37,186 bases of DNA, from the IMG/VR virus record IMGVR_UViG_3300046004_000632, positions 1 through 37,186 of that record; one strand, 5' to 3'. Positions 1-37,186 of the stretch are shown here, piece by piece. The notes beneath the pieces were generated by a model. It saw only the letters and a list, made by a program, of their open reading frames with translations, was not told the origin of the DNA and searched no databases. A program made the translations under genes and the position numbers. Every line of letters starts with the position of its first letter. The stretch's first letter is position 1. Source of the stretch: a virus.

Positions 1-256
1 ATCCGCCGCATCCGCAACGGGATACCGATCCGCCGCATCCGCAACGGGATACCAATCCGCCGCATCCGCAACGGGCGCCCAATCCGCCGCGTCCGCAACG
101 GGCGACCAATCCGCCGCATCCGCAACGGGATACCGATCCGCCGCATCCGCAACGGGATACCAATCCGCCGCATCCGCAACGGGCGCCCAATCCGCCGCGT
201 CCGCAACGGGCGACCAATCCGCCGCATCCGCAACGGGATACCGATCCGCCGCATTG
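1..256 (+). repeat. 27-bp coding tandem repeat with 108-bp higher-order unit
   Basis: Units of 27 bases start at 1, 28, 55, 82, 109, 136, 163, 190 and 217. Most differ only in the codons for the two variable residues (YR, YQ, AQ, DQ); the fourth and eighth units also share a silent change. The order YR-YQ-AQ-DQ is repeated twice, so bases 1-108 equal 109-216. Bases 1-127 also equal 37060-37186, which makes this the assembly junction. Array length here is therefore not reliable. Confidence 0.95.
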
Positions 257-427
257 GGCGCTGGATATGGAAACAAAGTCATGGGAAAAAACGGGTGCGC
301 TTTATTTCTGGTGGAACGTGACAACACCTACAATATCATCAACGCGCGGGCTGGCATCGTCGGACGCGATCTGGTTGAGGGTGTTTGGTATTCGCTAATC
401 GGTGGTGAATTTGTGGAGGTGAAATGA
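1..427 (+). CDS. C-terminal part of DUF7666-like nonapeptide-repeat protein (gene continues from 36485)
   Basis: This is an open frame without its own start; codons begin at base 2 and it ends with TGA at 425-427. It reads about nine repeats of the pattern A-T-G-x-x-S-A-A-S, then a non-repetitive tail of about 55 residues beginning GYGNKVMGKNG and ending GGEFVEVK. The frame matches the open end of the gene starting at 36485 if the identical 127-base contig ends are overlaid; the joined product would be about 333 residues. The tail is a compact, mixed beta-type sequence that follows such repeats in related phage proteins (my recollection of the family, not tested). The next gene starts inside its stop (ATGA), so it heads a translationally coupled operon. 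Function is unknown. Confidence 0.8.
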   Translation, partial: SAASATGYRSAASATGYQSAASATGAQSAASATGDQSAASATGYRSAASATGYQSAASATGAQSAASATGDQSAASATGYRSAALGAGYGNKVMGKNGCALFLVERDNTYNIINARAGIVGRDLVEGVWYSLIGGEFVEVK

Positions 428-672
428 TGTTTTACTTCACGCGCACGGTTGATCTGCCCGACGGATCGGAAGTCGATGTTGATTTCACTGCCGATGATGA
501 CGGAAATGTTGAGTTTGATGGCGAAAGCGGACTTCCAGACGATATTGAAGCCCGCGCATTGGATGCAGCAAATGACTGGTGGCAGGTTGATGGATGGGGC
601 CAAGCATTGCAGGACGAAGCCGACGAAGCCGCCGACGCAAAATATGAACGCATGAGGGAGGACAGAGAATGA
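424..672 (+). CDS. Small acidic hypothetical protein
   Basis: This 82-residue protein is very acidic, with Asp/Glu throughout (for example VDVDFTADDDG) and a short basic C-terminus. It starts with two Met codons; the first overlaps the stop of the repeat gene as ATGA, which implies translational coupling. A GGAG-type ribosome site lies in the end of the previous gene (GTGGAGGTG). No family was recognised. Such acidic small early proteins can be DNA mimics, but nothing beyond composition supports that here. Confidence 0.75.
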   Translation: MMFYFTRTVDLPDGSEVDVDFTADDDGNVEFDGESGLPDDIEARALDAANDWWQVDGWGQALQDEADEAADAKYERMREDRE

Positions 673-8553: not shown

Positions 8554-10080
8554 TCACAGCAGGCCCGCCGCAAACGTGGCGATGCCCTCGCCCATTTCGT
8601 TCAGGCCGGTCTGGCTGTAATGCACGTTGTCGACCATTTTGCTCTCGGAGACGAAATACTGCGCGCGGTCAAAAGCAATGTGCGTGTCAGCCCGCGCCGT
8701 GGCTACATTGACCTGCGCCGTGCGGATTTCCGTGTGGCCCGCGTCATATGTGCCGTCAACCAACTTCCCAAGAGATGAAATCAGGAACCCGTTAACCTGC
8801 GGAATGTTTACATCCAGATAGTCGAACAATCCGCCAAGCGACGTTTCATACGCTGCCCCAGTGATCGTCGTGCCATTGATCGCAATGGCCTCCTGCTCAC
8901 CCTGCGCCCAAACGACATAGCATTTGCCGAGCGTCAAACCACGCGCGGAAATCCAATCCTGAATGTCTGTTGTCACAGCAGCAGCACAGGTGCGGAGAGA
9001 ACCAGTAGTCCAGTTTGTGGTGCCACTCACCCCAGAGATGAGGCCCGAACCACCATATGCAGCCTCATAGACCAGCGCCGTGCGGCCCGTCAGGTCATGC
9101 CATTTCTGCGCTAGCGACGGCCACGCGGAGCCGTTCGTTGCCCCGCCAACAGGATCAGCAATTGACCGCACCGCACCGCCGTCAATCTCGTATCCAATGC
9201 CCGTTGCCACAGCAGGCCCTCCAGTGCCACGGCCCTCAGCGTTGGACTGCCCAGCAATCACAAACAGATCAACCGTGCCAGCGATAATGGGGCTGACAGG
9301 CAACCATTTTGCGGCCAAATAGTTATGGATTTGCTCGACCGTCCCGTCAGCAATAGCCCCCGCCCGCACGATCACCTCGCCAAAACGACAGGCAGCATGA
9401 TTTGCAACTGTCGTCCGCCCCAGCGCCCCCAGGGTGAACTTGTCGACAGACATGGGGCCAATGGGGGCCGCAATAGCCGTTTCGACTTTGACCCCATTGA
9501 CCCACATATCGACGGTTGAGCCATTGCTCACCAGAGAAACGATCTGCTCAAACAGCCCGATGCGATGCGTCGCGATGCCGGTATTGACCTCCGAAGTTGT
9601 GTCGAACCCCCACTGTGATTTCAGATTGGTGCCGATCACAGCGACCAGCCAGAGAAACGTTGCTGTGGTGGTGGAGTTGCCAGCGCTAAACACGGTTCCA
9701 AATCCGACCGATTGCTGGGACACGACCATATGCACAGACCAAGCCGTGCCGGTCCCGGCGAACACCGCCGCCAGAGCGTCACAGGTCAGATGCGTCGGAC
9801 TGCCAGTGGTGCGGATCATTTTCCGCCCGTTCACCGTGGCCACAACGCCACGGTTTGCACTGGTTGCCTGCACCAAATGGTTGCCGTTGCCGGACAGGTC
9901 AGTGACGCCGCCAAGTGGGTCGCCAGACGCTGCGGCAGTTGTCCGCGCGCTGTCCTGAAACAGAGTGTTGGTAGACGCCTGCGCGTCCCACCATGCGCCC
10001 GCGACACCACCAACAAATAAGTTTGCTGGATTGAACCCGCCCGTAGGCCGCGTGATGGGAAGTCCAAGACCGATCTGCAT
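8554..10080 (-). CDS. Tailspike/tail protein with SGNH-type carbohydrate esterase domain
   Basis: This 508-residue protein is read from ATG 10080, which overlaps the fibre stop (TGATG); GTG at 10083 is an alternative. Residues 1-20 are a short head-binding segment. A LamG/concanavalin-like sandwich follows at about 25-240 (VNGRKMIRTTGSPTHLT, VDMWVNGVKV). The C-terminal half is an SGNH hydrolase of the sialate O-acetylesterase type: VIAGQSNAEGRG (nucleophile about Ser279), VVWAQGEQEA (about 390-400), and VDNVHYSQTG with Asp and His at about 484 and 487. It probably removes acetyl groups from capsule or lipopolysaccharide during adsorption (inference from family). Confidence 0.83.
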   Translation of the reverse strand: MQIGLGLPITRPTGGFNPANLFVGGVAGAWWDAQASTNTLFQDSARTTAAASGDPLGGVTDLSGNGNHLVQATSANRGVVATVNGRKMIRTTGSPTHLTCDALAAVFAGTGTAWSVHMVVSQQSVGFGTVFSAGNSTTTATFLWLVAVIGTNLKSQWGFDTTSEVNTGIATHRIGLFEQIVSLVSNGSTVDMWVNGVKVETAIAAPIGPMSVDKFTLGALGRTTVANHAACRFGEVIVRAGAIADGTVEQIHNYLAAKWLPVSPIIAGTVDLFVIAGQSNAEGRGTGGPAVATGIGYEIDGGAVRSIADPVGGATNGSAWPSLAQKWHDLTGRTALVYEAAYGGSGLISGVSGTTNWTTGSLRTCAAAVTTDIQDWISARGLTLGKCYVVWAQGEQEAIAINGTTITGAAYETSLGGLFDYLDVNIPQVNGFLISSLGKLVDGTYDAGHTEIRTAQVNVATARADTHIAFDRAQYFVSESKMVDNVHYSQTGLNEMGEGIATFAAGLL

Positions 10081-11054
10081 CACTTCACCCCATAGACAGC
10101 GATAGAGCCTGCGTCGAAGTTCCCGCCCGACGTTGTGAATGTAATTGTCGTGGTAGCGGTGCTATATCCGCTTATACCGCCGTAGGCAGATCCACTGCCG
10201 TTAGGGCTAAGGCCAACTCCGACCATTGATCCCCAAATGCCAGACGCCAAATCAAGTTCTAGAACGCCATAGGCGCGCTTGGATGCGTCGGTGGCATTAC
10301 TTTCGCAGCATTGTTGCCCATCAAACCGAATGGAGTTTGTCGTTGACGAAAGCGAAACGCCATTTAGGTAGCATTTCAGCGATTTGTAATCCGTCAGCGT
10401 CAGCCCAGACAGCGATTGCGTTGACCCGCTCGTGGTCGTGATGGTCCCTAGCAGCGTCACACCGACCGTTGCGCTGATGGTAGGGTTTCCCGCCACGCCA
10501 TCGCCATTGGTGACGCTGACGCCAGTCCCAGCCGTGATGGTGCGGCCCGTGAACGTATCCGCCGCAGTCTGCGTCAACAGCCCTGCGGTGTTATACGCCG
10601 CCAGCGCGGTCAAGGTCGCATCGCTGGCCTGCTTTGCGTCCAGTTGCGTTTGGATCGCAGAAGTCACGCCATCAACGTAATTCAACTCAGCGACAGTCAA
10701 TGTTGCGCCGTCGAGGATGTTCAGCTCGGTGACGGTCAGCGTTGCGCCGTCCAGAATGTTCAATTCCGCTGCCGTCGCAGTCACCCCGTCAAGGATGTTC
10801 AACTCAGCAGCCGTGGCAGTAACACCGTCGAGGATGTTCAATTCCGCTGCCGTCGCGGTAAGGCCAAGGTTCACCAACGCACCCGCAGCCGTGGATGCAC
10901 CAGTGCCGCCAGCCACAACGGGACGCGCAATGTTCAAATCCGCTGCGATGTCCGCAATCGGCGTGTTAATGTCAGAGGCATCGCTGGTATCGCCATTCGA
11001 TACCGTCGATCCTGCGGGTAGACTGTAAACTCCGGCACCATTGCGTGACATCAT
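10080..11054 (-). CDS. Tail fibre protein with 13-residue repeats
   Basis: This 324-residue protein starts with two Met codons after an AAAGGA site. Residues 65-130 are five 13-residue repeats of the form [13 protein letters not shown], a motif common in phage fibre shafts. The C-terminal 120 residues are Ser/Thr/Gly-rich beta sequence ([40 protein letters not shown]) likely to be the distal domain that contacts the host. It lies next to the esterase tailspike, so the phage may carry both receptor-binding and polysaccharide-modifying parts. The upstream 243 bases hold no minus-strand gene. Confidence 0.8.
10673..10868 (-). repeat. 39-bp coding tandem repeats in tail fibre gene
   Basis: Five direct repeats of 39 bases encode the AELNILDG-type units. 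The inner copies are more alike at DNA level than the outer ones (TLTVTELN and TLTVAELN variants on one side). They are a likely site for recombination that lengthens or shortens the fibre shaft. Confidence 0.85.
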
Positions 11055-28559: not shown

Positions 28560-29033
28560 CTAGCAAGGGGGATTTTCACTTGGCATTAGTTTTGCTGCAA
28601 ATCCAGCGGCCCGCATGATCTCAGCCGCAGCCTCGGCGCTGATGCGGTCGCGCGGCGGTTCTGATTGCAATTCAATCCTAGTGCGCGATGATACCAGCAA
28701 TCGCCGTGCTGATATGATATTCGCTACAATATGCCCCTCGTTTGGCATGTGCCTAGGGTCGGCCAAAACCGCCGCACGACATGCTGACCTAATCTCATCC
28801 AATGGATAATCCTGTAGCGCGTCCATCCAGTCCACCAGCAGCCGATCCTGAGCCATTGACCCTCGATCACGATCCCAGCCGAAACGGTCGAACTTCTTCG
28901 CCAAAACCTCCAGTTCCACCGCGATCATCGCCCGATGTTTGCTCAACTCCTGCGAGCCTAAGAATGTTCGCAAGGGCAGGATCAACCCCGTTGCCGCGTC
29001 CCTGTGCTGATCTGTGATGGTCAAATCCGTCAT
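28560..29033 (-). CDS. Helicase-loader-like replication protein
   Basis: This 157-residue protein is read from ATG 29033; ATG 29045 and 29072 are longer alternatives. The pattern PLRTFLGSQELSKHRAMIAV and VDWMDALQDYPLDEIRSACR (about residues 67-86), followed by PRHMPNEGHIVANIISARRL, resembles phage helicase loader/G39P-like proteins in which an aromatic W-x-x-A-L and the (M/P)-P-x-x-G segment recur. It lies right after the initiator gene in transcription order, as in lambda O-P. It would deliver the host helicase to the origin. About 167 bases overlap the end of the initiator gene in another frame. Confidence 0.62.
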   Translation of the reverse strand: MTDLTITDQHRDAATGLILPLRTFLGSQELSKHRAMIAVELEVLAKKFDRFGWDRDRGSMAQDRLLVDWMDALQDYPLDEIRSACRAAVLADPRHMPNEGHIVANIISARRLLVSSRTRIELQSEPPRDRISAEAAAEIMRAAGFAAKLMPSENPPC

Positions 29034-29715
29034 ATCGTTTCCCATTCTGCTTAGAAGTTGGTGCGCGTTCAATCGCTGCCCTGATCCAGTTTCGCCACGT
29101 TGCCTGCCAGTCCAGCTTCGCGGCTGATGCCCCAGCTTTAGAATGCCAGTAGTCGCGGAACTTGTCGGCCTCTGATCGGATTAGATCCACGCTGCATCCT
29201 TCTGATACCGCCCATTCGCCCCAGTCCTTCGGAAGAAACCAGTCAGGCGAAAGCCGCGAAGCGCGTTGTTTAGGTAAAGAAGCTTTAGCTTCTTCTTCCT
29301 TACCTTCTTTCATCCTTCTTTCACCCTTCTTATAGTTTGCGTCGGTGGTGCGTCGGTGGTGCGTCGGTGGTGCGTCGGATGCTTGATCTGATCCCTGATA
29401 TGTGCTGTAATTACATATACTTACGACAGTCACACCTGCGTCGGTTTTTGCCAAAATCATTTCAAGTTTTTCTAGGCGTTTTAGGTATCTTCTAACCTTG
29501 CTATCTGTCCAACCCCATGATGACGCCGCAAATCTAGATGACAAAGCAAGATCACCACGCGCAAGATCGACTATCAGGTCTCCAACGCGCTTGCGCCTAT
29601 CGGCAAAAGACGCCTCACTGATCATCCAAATCCACGCCTCTCGCTCAGAGAAAACCTCATGAGCGAAGGCTGTGCTTTCCCAAATCTGACGATTGATTTT
29701 TATAAATCCGCTCAT
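28867..29715 (-). CDS. Replication initiator (lambda O-like, winged-helix)
   Basis: This 282-residue protein has TGAGG five bases before its start. The N-terminal 110 residues are a winged-helix domain (FIKINRQIWESTAFAHEVFS; DSKVRRYLKRLEKLEMILAK). A charged linker follows (residues 110-160, rich in Lys/Glu/Arg) and then a C-terminal helical domain with WQATWRNWIRAAIE (about 215-230), typical of phage O/DnaD-like initiators that contact the helicase loader. The middle of the gene contains 11-bp direct repeats (29339-29378), as lambda's origin lies inside O. Codon use is somewhat AT-richer in the linker. Confidence 0.75.
   Translation of the reverse strand: MSGFIKINRQIWESTAFAHEVFSEREAWIWMISEASFADRRKRVGDLIVDLARGDLALSSRFAASSWGWTDSKVRRYLKRLEKLEMILAKTDAGVTVVSICNYSTYQGSDQASDAPPTHHRRTTDANYKKGERRMKEGKEEEAKASLPKQRASRLSPDWFLPKDWGEWAVSEGCSVDLIRSEADKFRDYWHSKAGASAAKLDWQATWRNWIRAAIERAPTSKQNGKRYDGFDHHRSAQGRGNGVDPALANILRLAGVEQTSGDDRGGTGGFGEEVRPFRLGS
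29339..29378 (-). repeat. 11-bp direct repeats inside the initiator gene, candidate origin iterons
   Basis: GCGTCGGTGGT is repeated three times without a gap (29339-29349, 29350-29360, 29361-29371) and then partially (29372-29378). Since 11 is not a multiple of 3, each copy is read in a different frame (DAPP, THHR, RTTDA), so selection for protein repeats is unlikely. The adjoining 29265-29338 is AT-rich and pyrimidine-biased, and 29395-29430 is also AT-rich. This layout resembles the lambda ori inside O. Confidence 0.55.
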
Positions 29716-34479: not shown

Positions 34480-34895
34480 TGGATAACGATATGGAAGCCG
34501 TCAAAATTTCCAAAGAAAGCTACGCATGGCAACAGCTTGAAGCGAACCCTATTGGCACGGCAGCGGAGCTGGCGGAACTGAAAGCCGCCCTGACCCAATC
34601 CCGCGCCGAAACCGCTGCGGCGTATGAGCGGGCGGCGGATCAGTTTGAGAAAATCCGTGCCCCCCTGACGTATGGCGAAATCTCCAGCATGATCCGCGCC
34701 CTCGCCACCCCCGACCAAACCGCCGCGCTGGACGCTGTGCGGGCAGAGGCACGGGCGCAGGGGATGCGTGATGCGGCGCAGGAGTGCCAGACCCTCGCCG
34801 ATAAAGCCAATGGCTATGGCATCCAACAAATGACAATGGGCGCAAATATATGCCGCGACGCCATCCTCGCCGCCATCAAAGGAGCCAAAGCATGA
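34479..34895 (+). CDS. Hypothetical helical protein, copy 2 of a duplicated pair
   Basis: This 138-residue protein is read from ATG 34479 (TGATG junction). Residues 36-100 match the protein at 1329-1709 almost exactly, while the N-terminus (MDNDMEAVKISKESYAWQQL) and the segment ahead of the C-terminus (CQTLADKANGYGIQQMTMG) differ. It overlaps the following Lar-like gene by 4 bases, as in the other copy. Function unknown. Confidence 0.75.
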   Translation: MDNDMEAVKISKESYAWQQLEANPIGTAAELAELKAALTQSRAETAAAYERAADQFEKIRAPLTYGEISSMIRALATPDQTAALDAVRAEARAQGMRDAAQECQTLADKANGYGIQQMTMGANICRDAILAAIKGAKA

Positions 34896-34926
34896 CCGCG
34901 CCAGAACTGAAACCCTGCCCGTTTTG
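34588..34926 (+). repeat. Duplicated segment, copy 2 (partner 1437-1743)
   Basis: This is the counterpart of the segment at 1437-1743. It includes the same core of the helical protein and the identical join to the Lar-like gene. Matches fall off in the zinc-finger variable parts and upstream of the core. Confidence 0.85.
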
Positions 34927-35233
34927 TGGTGGTGCCGCTGAACTTTCGTGTGGTTACGCAGAATGTGGTTTTTGTTTGTGTGCTATGCCAAGTAGTATTG
35001 GGTATGATGGTGAGAAAGTTGGTTTTGATACGGAAACAGAAGCAATCACCGCATGGAACACCCGCGCCGACATGCACGACGCCACCAAGGCCCAACTGGC
35101 GAAGGCGGTAGAGGCTCTGCGGGAAATCGAACGCAACTATGCAAATCCAGACATGACGCATCTCGATTATCGGGTTGGTGCTATGCAATCGGCTTTTGCC
35201 GTGCTGGCCGAGATTGAGAAGGGCACAAGTTGA
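34892..35233 (+). CDS. Lar-like restriction alleviation protein, copy 2
   Basis: This 113-residue protein begins MTAPELKPCPFCGGAAELSC with CPFCGG and a further group of Cys residues (CGYAECGFCLC), a fuller zinc site than in copy 1, and has ITAWNTRADMHDATKAQLAK after it. That is the Lar_restr_allev pattern. The frame is open to 34850, but the start is set by the ATGA overlap. The middle differs from copy 1 while both ends agree, as if the zinc region had been exchanged. Anti-restriction is inferred from family. Confidence 0.78.
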   Translation: MTAPELKPCPFCGGAAELSCGYAECGFCLCAMPSSIGYDGEKVGFDTETEAITAWNTRADMHDATKAQLAKAVEALREIERNYANPDMTHLDYRVGAMQSAFAVLAEIEKGTS

Positions 35234-36155: not shown

Positions 36156-36368
36156 TCACCGCCGATTGGTAACGCGGCCAGGCCTAGCCTTTGCAAGCTG
36201 CTCATATGTCAGCACTGCATTTCTGCGCGCGGCGGCGTCGATGATCGCGCCGTCGTTTTCGGCTGGAATGCGGTTGCGCCGTTTCCAAGCCGCCACGGTC
36301 TGATATGGCAAGCCCAGATCAGAGGCGAGATCGGACATTCTGGGCCAGATGTGTTTGATGTGTTCCAT
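36156..36368 (-). CDS. Cro-like helix-turn-helix regulator
   Basis: This 70-residue protein is read from ATG 36368 (MEHIKHIWPRMSDLASDLGL); the frame is open to 36443 and ATG 36389 is another candidate, but the shorter form matches the usual start of these proteins. MSDLASDLGLPYQTVAAWKRR (about 11-31) is a helix-turn-helix of the Cro/YdaS type, and IPAENDGAIIDAAARRNAVL follows it. It is divergent to the repeat-protein gene at 36485 and has its own terminator, so it probably controls that operon and itself. Confidence 0.78.
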   Translation of the reverse strand: MEHIKHIWPRMSDLASDLGLPYQTVAAWKRRNRIPAENDGAIIDAAARRNAVLTYEQLAKARPGRVTNRR

Positions 36369-36484: not shown

Positions 36485-37186
36485 ATGACCAAAGATCACA
36501 AAATCACCGCATACAAGGGCTTCAACGCAGACTGGACCTGTCGCGGGTTCCAGTATGAGGTCGGGAAAACCTACGCGCATGAGGGAGATGTGGGCGTGTG
36601 CAACGCTGGATTTCACGCCTGCGAAAACCCTCTGGAGGTTTTTCAACACTATGCGCCGACGGGTAAGTTTGCTGTAGTCGAAATGTCCGGCAACATCAGC
36701 AAATCGACCGATGGTGATACAAAGCTGGCATCGGCATGGATCAGCGTGACTGTTGAATTGTCGCTGCACGATTTCATCGGTCGCGCAATTGCGTGGTTGA
36801 CTGTTAATGCAAAGTCTAAAGAAAAACACGCAACGGGCGACCAATCCGCCGCATCCGCAACGGGCGACCAATCCGCCGCGTCCGCAACGGGCGACCGATC
36901 CGCCGCGTCCGCAACGGGCGACCAATCCGCAGCATCCGCAACGGGATACCGATCCGCCGCATCCGCAACGGGCGACCGATCCGCCGCATCCGCAACGGGA
37001 TACCGATCCGCAGCATCCGCAACGGGATACCGATCCGCCGCATCCGCAACGGGCGACCGATCCGCCGCATCCGCAACGGGATACCGATCCGCCGCATCCG
37101 CAACGGGATACCAATCCGCCGCATCCGCAACGGGCGCCCAATCCGCCGCGTCCGCAACGGGCGACCAATCCGCCGCATCCGCAACG
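36485..37186 (+). CDS. DUF7666-like protein with nonapeptide repeats, N-terminal part (continues at 1)
   Basis: ATG 36485 lies 8 bases after GGGAG; ATG 36479 is in frame but too close. The first 115 residues are globular: MTKDHKITAYKGFNADWTCR, GFQYEVGKTYAHEGDV, CNAGFHACENPLEVFQHY, the pattern K-G-F-n-x-D-x-x-C-R-G-F-Q-Y-x-V-G of DUF7666 as I recall it. From base 36830, nine-residue units A-T-G-x-x-S-A-A-S follow to the window's end with DQ, DR, YR, YQ or AQ at the variable pair. Joined to 1-427 the protein has about 18 repeats and 333 residues. Regular Gly and Ser spacing suggests a beta-solenoid rod. No signal peptide. Role unknown. Confidence 0.85.
   Translation, partial: MTKDHKITAYKGFNADWTCRGFQYEVGKTYAHEGDVGVCNAGFHACENPLEVFQHYAPTGKFAVVEMSGNISKSTDGDTKLASAWISVTVELSLHDFIGRAIAWLTVNAKSKEKHATGDQSAASATGDQSAASATGDRSAASATGDQSAASATGYRSAASATGDRSAASATGYRSAASATGYRSAASATGDRSAASATGYRSAASATGYQSAASATGAQSAASATGDQSAASAT
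36830..37186 (+). repeat. 27-bp coding tandem repeat, right end
   Basis: Thirteen full units and the start of a fourteenth run to the end of the window. The last four (YR, YQ, AQ, DQ) equal the 108-base higher-order unit at 1-108, and the last 127 bases equal the first 127 of the window. The earlier nine units mix DQ, DR and YR without that order. Confidence 0.95.

Follow-up and report, generated by a model that had tools for sequence, protein, structure and literature searches.

What is a phage protein for that consists largely of almost identical nine-residue repeats, and why do these repeats differ from one another at two adjacent residues? The question is raised by a gene that lies across the two ends of IMG/VR virus record IMGVR_UViG_3300046004_000632, a stretch of 37,186 bases that was analysed whole (the window). 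Here we show that in relatives of this gene the repeat array is rebuilt while the DNA on either side of it stays almost unchanged, and that variation between the units of an array is concentrated in two neighbouring codons. The reading that we favour, tentatively and at somewhat less than even confidence, is that the product is an intracellular rod of the early phage programme, that the order of its variable residue pairs (diresidues) sets what it binds, and that selection keeps this order diverse for use in conflict.

The first and last 127 bases of the window are identical, bases 1-127 being an exact copy of 37060-37186, and after removal of this terminal overlap a single reading frame runs on from the tail of the contig into its head. 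The repeat gene thus spans the contig junction, from 36485 (or 36479) to 37186 and on through 128 to 427, and encodes 335 amino acids from the first possible ATG (36479) or 333 from the ATG at 36485, which is the better spaced to a GGGAG motif. In order, the protein comprises a DUF7666 domain, a helical linker, 18 nominal ATGxxSAAS units and a 56-residue C-terminal cap:

36485..37186, plus strand: 5' part of the DUF7666/nonapeptide gene (PF24703, 7.9e-32; PHROG 4433, 1.6e-83)
1..427, plus strand: 3' part of the same gene, in frame from base 2 and including the 127-bp overlap (PHROG 4433 and 27197)
36503..36778, plus strand: DUF7666 domain, residues 9-100 (PF24703; AlphaFold predicted local distance difference test score, pLDDT, mostly 92-98)
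36830..37186, plus strand: nonapeptide array ATGxxSAAS, units 1-13 and part of unit 14
1..256, plus strand: final part of the array, at the start of the contig, the last unit, ATGYRSAAL, at 230-256
1..254, plus strand: exact period-108 run of YR-YQ-AQ-DQ blocks (Tandem Repeats Finder, TRF, 100% match; number of blocks ambiguous)
257..427, plus strand: C-terminal cap (GAGYGNKVMGKNGCALFLVERD...GGEFVEVK) and stop codon; relatives have a homologous cap

The PF24703 profile scores 110.1 bits over residues 9-100 (gathering score 27 bits), the PHROG 4433 profile matches both halves of the gene (1.6e-83 and 5.7e-25) across domain, array and cap, and the core residues K13, C21, Q25, G29, G44 and H46, invariant among 32 diverse members, are all present. 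By these profile matches the window gene is a member of the DUF7666/PHROG 4433 family, and gp53 of Salmonella phage ES18, also in PHROG 4433, has the same succession of N-terminal domain, repeats and C-terminal cap. Members occur in phages and prophages of Pseudomonas, Salmonella, Vibrio, Acinetobacter, Bacteroidetes and Firmicutes; a search of E. coli genomes with the 5' part of ES18 gp53 gave no match.

A search with the N-terminal part of a Pseudomonas homologue returned 80 loci. All 30 complete Pseudomonas-type arrays are distinct from one another, with 2 to 27 units. The Pseudomonas aeruginosa phages Flu_PA14_4 and YA3 are 99.5% identical in the N-terminal part of the gene, 100% in the C-terminal part and in the 1 kb upstream, and 97% downstream, and their arrays of 27 and 28 units are unrelated in order. 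Loci L103 and L111, identical at both ends of the gene and over 300 bases before it and 1.5 kb after it, carry 27 and 18 units of which the first eight alone are common to both. In a Dyella-type pair (L014 and L172) one array is longer by a single unit while 3 kb on either side are identical, and in another pair with identical N-terminal parts (L198 and L201) about 8 pentapeptide units stand against 36. The expectation that array length would vary is therefore borne out; a constant repeat number among relatives, named beforehand as the observation that would speak against it, is not what these genomes have. Such arrays are probably rebuilt quickly, as single units or whole blocks are added, lost or exchanged. 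We tried the possibility that a predicted pairing of two units per coil (see below) restricts repeat number to even values, and rejected it: among the Pseudomonas arrays 20 are even and 10 odd and, since changes of one and of 11 units also occur, there is no parity constraint.

Could repeat number and order simply be errors of short-read assembly? The window itself ends inside the gene, as do 67 of 157 homologous loci on viral contigs (24 of 77 and 43 of 80), and the repeat array thus seems to break phage assemblies systematically; some arrays are, moreover, frameshifted. However, independent complete records of evidently one phage agree exactly (Flu_PA14_4 with Komp_PA14_gP, and 5371 with 5399), which indicates both that the differences are not just noise and that arrays are stable over short time scales, and phages with near-identical flanks differ throughout the array with reading frame and alphabet preserved. 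We regard an artefact as a most improbable explanation of the variation as a whole. The frameshifts inside repeats (TC7, L134, Emek and fEg-Aba01) may be biology or sequencing error, and on/off switching is a candidate reading of them.

The second line of evidence is where within a unit the differences fall. We compared 120 arrays from several phyla, with repeat periods of 5, 8 or 9 residues. The variable residues, here called letters, are encoded by the two codons (x1 and x2) after an invariant glycine, and repeats of 5, 8 and 9 residues draw on a common alphabet. Among 1,500 units, 87% have D, N or Y at x1, where 89% use an NAY codon, while x2 is usually Y, R, Q, S, C or W. Amino-acid heterozygosity averages 0.63 and 0.61 at the letter positions, compared with 0-0.24 elsewhere; in the IGSSG repeat class a third position (Q/K) also varies. 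Between nonapeptide units with different letters, the per-site nucleotide difference is 0.387 in the letter codons and 0.012 in the framework, the latter consisting of synonymous changes averaged over all 21 sites, or about 0.036 per synonymous site. Half of the arrays (60 of 120) combine a single framework haplotype with at least three letters. The Pseudomonas arrays come close to one synonymous haplotype each (all of type a, b or d) while carrying the pairs DY, YQ, NR, YR, NY, DR and NQ in near-random order.

These patterns bear directly on the simplest alternative, that the letters are interchangeable polar residues in a structural array and that unequal crossing-over and slippage alone vary it. 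Instability is to be expected of tandem repeats of 24 or 27 bp, there are exact block duplications (period 108 in the window), the letters of Pseudomonas-type arrays match one another at a lag of 11 units more often than when shuffled (z 4.5; weakly so in two other repeat classes), and the letters are a narrow selection of polar or aromatic residues, as would suit a solvent-exposed turn. The lag-11 excess may reflect shared ancestry. However, a letter is linked to the synonymous sites beside it, all lying within 27 bases, so that neutral homogenisation would act on both and their linked genealogy should flatten both alike, whereas many arrays have one framework haplotype together with 3-9 letters; nor did a lag analysis of the letters find any excess at lag 1 or lag 2. 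Slippage or recombination, proposed in the original prediction as the cause of the repeats, fails on its own for the relatives, with their homogeneous frameworks, two variable codons and lack of short-lag repetition. We consider a purely neutral array unlikely, if still deserving of serious attention.

There are two possibilities: selection maintains the diversity of the letters while exchange of short tracts evens out the framework, or the letters are changed in a targeted manner. In the latter case a diversity-generating retroelement, or some other directed mutator, would rewrite the letter codons, which would account for the constancy of codons a few bases away and for the prevalence of NAY at x1, given that first-base mutation of AAY yields NAY. 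Against this, the letters form a small, fixed set (in Pseudomonas D/Y/N with Y/R/Q) and intermediates such as TGC and CAC are rare; x2 employs CAA, CAG, CGC and TGG and not solely adenine-derived NNY codons; and a scan of 20 open reading frames (ORFs) of the window, a subset of those present, found no reverse transcriptase. Targeted diversification appears very unlikely to us, and the small letter set with its rare intermediates leads us to prefer selection, most probably for different or changing targets, as what keeps the letters diverse over a homogenised framework.

In the window, the letters run DQ DQ DR DQ YR DR YR YR DR YR YQ AQ DQ YR YQ AQ DQ YR, and apart from a final Ser->Leu change the amino-acid variation is, as had been noticed from the sequence, limited to the two residues after glycine. 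The two halves of the array score 403-562 at period 27 in TRF and the period-108 run over bases 1-254 is 100% identical, values which exclude a chance array and which bear out the claim that successive 108-base blocks are exact copies. The last block is clearly a recent duplication; the other blocks are not clearly so, and the very recent expansion that had been proposed holds for that last block. The contig was cut within the array, and a 19-base overlap of its ends fits as well as one of 127, which is probably the k-mer length of the assembler. Because the 254-bp run is longer than 127+108, 18 and 22 units fit equally: the assembly does not fix the copy number, and there may be more. The original prediction of about 18 units was correct in position (36830-37186 continuing to base 256), while its count could equally be 22. 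It had also described the units as almost identical in DNA, yet their synonymous sites do vary, with five framework haplotypes and mean differences between units of 1.57 in the 6 letter bases and 1.28 in the 21 framework bases. Synonymous framework differences are thus not much rarer here than letter differences, as a neutral array would have it. In the nearest relative (L236), also of 18 units, the contrast is stronger (1.53/6 against 0.37/21).

How might such an array present its letters? AlphaFold was run on the joined protein with a 35-row alignment and gave pLDDT values mostly above 92 for DUF7666 and of about 83 for the array. The array is predicted to form strands at (x)SAASAT and turns at G-x-x (DSSP), with an 18-residue period, or two units per coil, in the first half of the array. 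This supports, though it does not prove, a beta-solenoid whose turns carry the variable pair, and goes against disordered repeats, the other outcome that had been named in advance as counting against the proposal. The solenoid had been expected to carry the variable residues on one face; with the pair at turns and an 18-residue period two edges are expected instead, and the DSSP assignment would likewise place the pair on the edges of the rod. The protein may be pictured as a rigid beta-solenoid built from near-identical repeats, with a DUF7666 adaptor at its N-terminus and a cap at its C-terminus; the diresidues would be displayed at the turns as a ladder along the rod edges, and their varying order would determine what is bound.

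Such an arrangement recalls the transcription activator-like effectors (TALEs), whose arrays have conserved ends and a variable number of near-identical repeats that vary at two adjacent residues. The likeness, a variable adjacent pair in a homogeneous framework, is strong in the relatives and weak in the window. The window units differ from TALE repeats in being 9-residue beta units, as opposed to alpha-helical repeats of about 34 residues, and the two have no sequence relation. A rod that reads nucleic acid, with every diresidue touching one base or base step after the manner of the TALE repeat-variable diresidues or the PUF and PPR codes, would share this signature of homogeneous framework, variable diresidue and number, and conserved ends; N/D/Y/H and R/Q/S/W include residues suited to base contact and stacking, and the genes are early ones beside repressors. 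However, these residues are no less typical of surfaces that bind proteins, and the searches made gave no homology or fold match to nucleic-acid-binding repeats, and we think this function quite unlikely. That DUF7666 proteins are programmable rods, with one diresidue as one specificity element, which temperate phages in several phyla reshuffle to track changing intracellular targets, is a rather doubtful extension of the reading that we favour; it would set them, on the phage side, beside the diversification of TALEs or variable lymphocyte receptors.

The genomic setting indicates when and where such a rod would act. The nearest genes are:

36156..36368, minus strand: divergent helix-turn-helix (HTH) gene, CI/Cro-like (PF07022, 22.3 bits against a cut-off of 22)
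424..672, plus strand: next gene downstream, its start overlapping the stop of the repeat gene (ATGATG)
34850-35233, plus strand: Lar-type restriction-alleviation protein (PF14354, 1.3e-9)

The adjoining Cro-like regulator of the original prediction is thus present, at the very cut-off of its profile; the listed ORF reaches 36443 and the probable ATG is at 36368. The gene at 424..672 is without a family match in the profile scans. Further downstream lie a Lar-like profile match (1706-2002, 2e-7) and then a helicase and a methyltransferase, and genes for an Erf-like protein, an exonuclease, an HNH nuclease, the Lar protein and NinB lie upstream in the same orientation. The opposite strand carries the genes for portal, major head, terminase and lysis, and this, together with the early genes around it, marks the repeat gene as early or accessory and not a virion gene. 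The same holds for homologues: ES18 gp53 lies between a gene-24-like antiterminator and cIII/kil/erf, and others adjoin ral (UPF_BP1), follow N (S135, S107 and Emek), lie near CI in Pseudomonas phages or, in Acinetobacter phages, have an Xre regulator next to them. Relatives of HTH repressors, near 26 of 123 loci, are the commonest neighbours, and the other recurrent ones are all generic early genes (helicase, single-strand-binding protein, DnaB, integrase and methylases). At two loci (L278:727-1809 and L310:655-1809) an extra N-terminal domain (PHROG 2072, 2.2e-33) is fused before DUF7666 and the array.

For an early intracellular rod whose letters are kept diverse, the likeliest setting would be conflict, in which the rod engages a polymorphic partner inside the cell; candidate partners are a host defence or takeover target, or a factor of a rival phage or prophage. 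The ligand-binding rod or decoy of the original prediction is likewise a candidate role. A further pointer in this direction comes from the DUF7666 domain. In the PDB neither Foldseek (no match at E<=0.001) nor a sequence search with the domain profile found a match. Foldseek searches of a viral library returned other DUF7666 proteins and a pentapeptide protein and, with the domain alone, RIIB, giant-virus ankyrin proteins and DUF4116 proteins (probability 1.00). T4 RIIB scores 27-28.9 with the profile, whereas the best of 118 unrelated proteins reaches 20.9 and the reversed sequence 16.9, and the alignment sets its TCSRGLHVC on the C-x-x-GFHAC core of DUF7666. The similar region (L228:1166-2104, T4 rIIB) covers residues ~209-308, and by this profile score, and by the Foldseek matches to other RIIB proteins, the C-terminal region resembles a distantly related DUF7666 domain. 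Mutants of T4 in rII are excluded by RexAB of lambda, and RIIB is thus needed on lambda lysogens (PMC11077077). The likeness weakly suggests that the DUF7666 domain family serves in phage conflict. RIIB and the giant-virus proteins differ from the window protein in what accompanies the domain, an HTH-type N-terminus in RIIB and ankyrin repeats in the latter, and the relation is not recorded in Pfam. If true, it gives Benzer's rII locus a domain relative.

The domain might instead be a divergent ADP-ribosyltransferase that modifies whatever the array binds. Annotators of Acinetobacter phages call a homologue a putative ADP-ribosyltransferase resembling rifampin Arr, and Foldseek matches include diphtheria toxin and PARP16, at chance level. 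An hhalign comparison of 146 DUF7666 domains with eight Arr sequences gave a probability of 1.3 over a 14-column match, no Pfam ADP-ribosyltransferase family was found at E<=5, and the PDB search by Foldseek gave nothing at its threshold, and we judge an enzyme of this kind highly improbable. A collagen-like or tail-fibre identity was rejected as well: the PDB sequence matches of the full profile reflect collagen-type composition, those of the repeat profile to SclB, YdhT and tail fibres are likewise compositional, all are confined to the low-complexity array, and the gene is early and not among the structural genes.

Several observations weigh against an early binding rod diversified for conflict. 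The two-codon contrast is weak in the window's own array with its five framework haplotypes, so that this argument rests on the relatives, and our searches found no isogenic relative of the window phage. Some of the shortest arrays are from draft genomes and may be collapsed assemblies. The predicted template modelling score of the structure is 0.51, the five models span mean pLDDT values of 64-85, and the array of a full-length relative (L020) scored about 50. Across the 123 loci no conserved specific gene partner was found, and PADLOC, whose library holds defence systems and not counter-defence, found no defence-family match.

Homology to TALEs, RTX proteins, ADP-ribosyltransferases or the targets of diversity-generating retroelements is not supported. 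The RTX beta-roll has nine-residue repeats, two per predicted turn, in common with the window array; ATGxxSAAS lacks the GGxGxDxUx calcium motif, and RTX proteins are secreted whereas the array belongs to an intracellular phage early gene. Retroelement targets also vary at chosen codons in a constant framework; they differ from the small fixed alphabet and tandem array seen here, with no reverse transcriptase in the scanned ORFs and no search for a template repeat made. The NSGxx arrays of some DUF7666 proteins match Pentapeptide_2 (PF01469; L079, 1.8e-35) and have the same two variable positions; the window nonapeptides gave no match to the PF00805 or PF01469 profiles.

In the literature searched DUF7666 appears in no paper, matches to the repeat motif are unrelated and the hypervariable diresidues are not described, and databases give DUF7666 no function or array behaviour. 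Arrays that are replaced before their flanks have diverged by 1%, and that change at two codons per unit, amount to a natural experiment on recognition, and since YA3 and Flu_PA14_4 differ at the array with near-identical flanks its role is directly testable. The array also appears to be a systematic source of broken phage contigs and of the misannotation of family members as CRISPR, C-type lectin, ATPase or ADP-ribosyltransferase. In Vibrio phage 1.185.O (L217), the array of the homologue is annotated as CRISPR spacers, evidently falsely.

The window contains other short tandem repeats. A 39-base imperfect repeat of about 2-3 copies occupies 10681-10861, inside the minus-strand ORF 10080-11054, and two 11-base repeats, CCTTCTTTCAC and TGCGTCGGTGG, lie at 29303-29378 in a minus-strand replication-type ORF (28867-29715).
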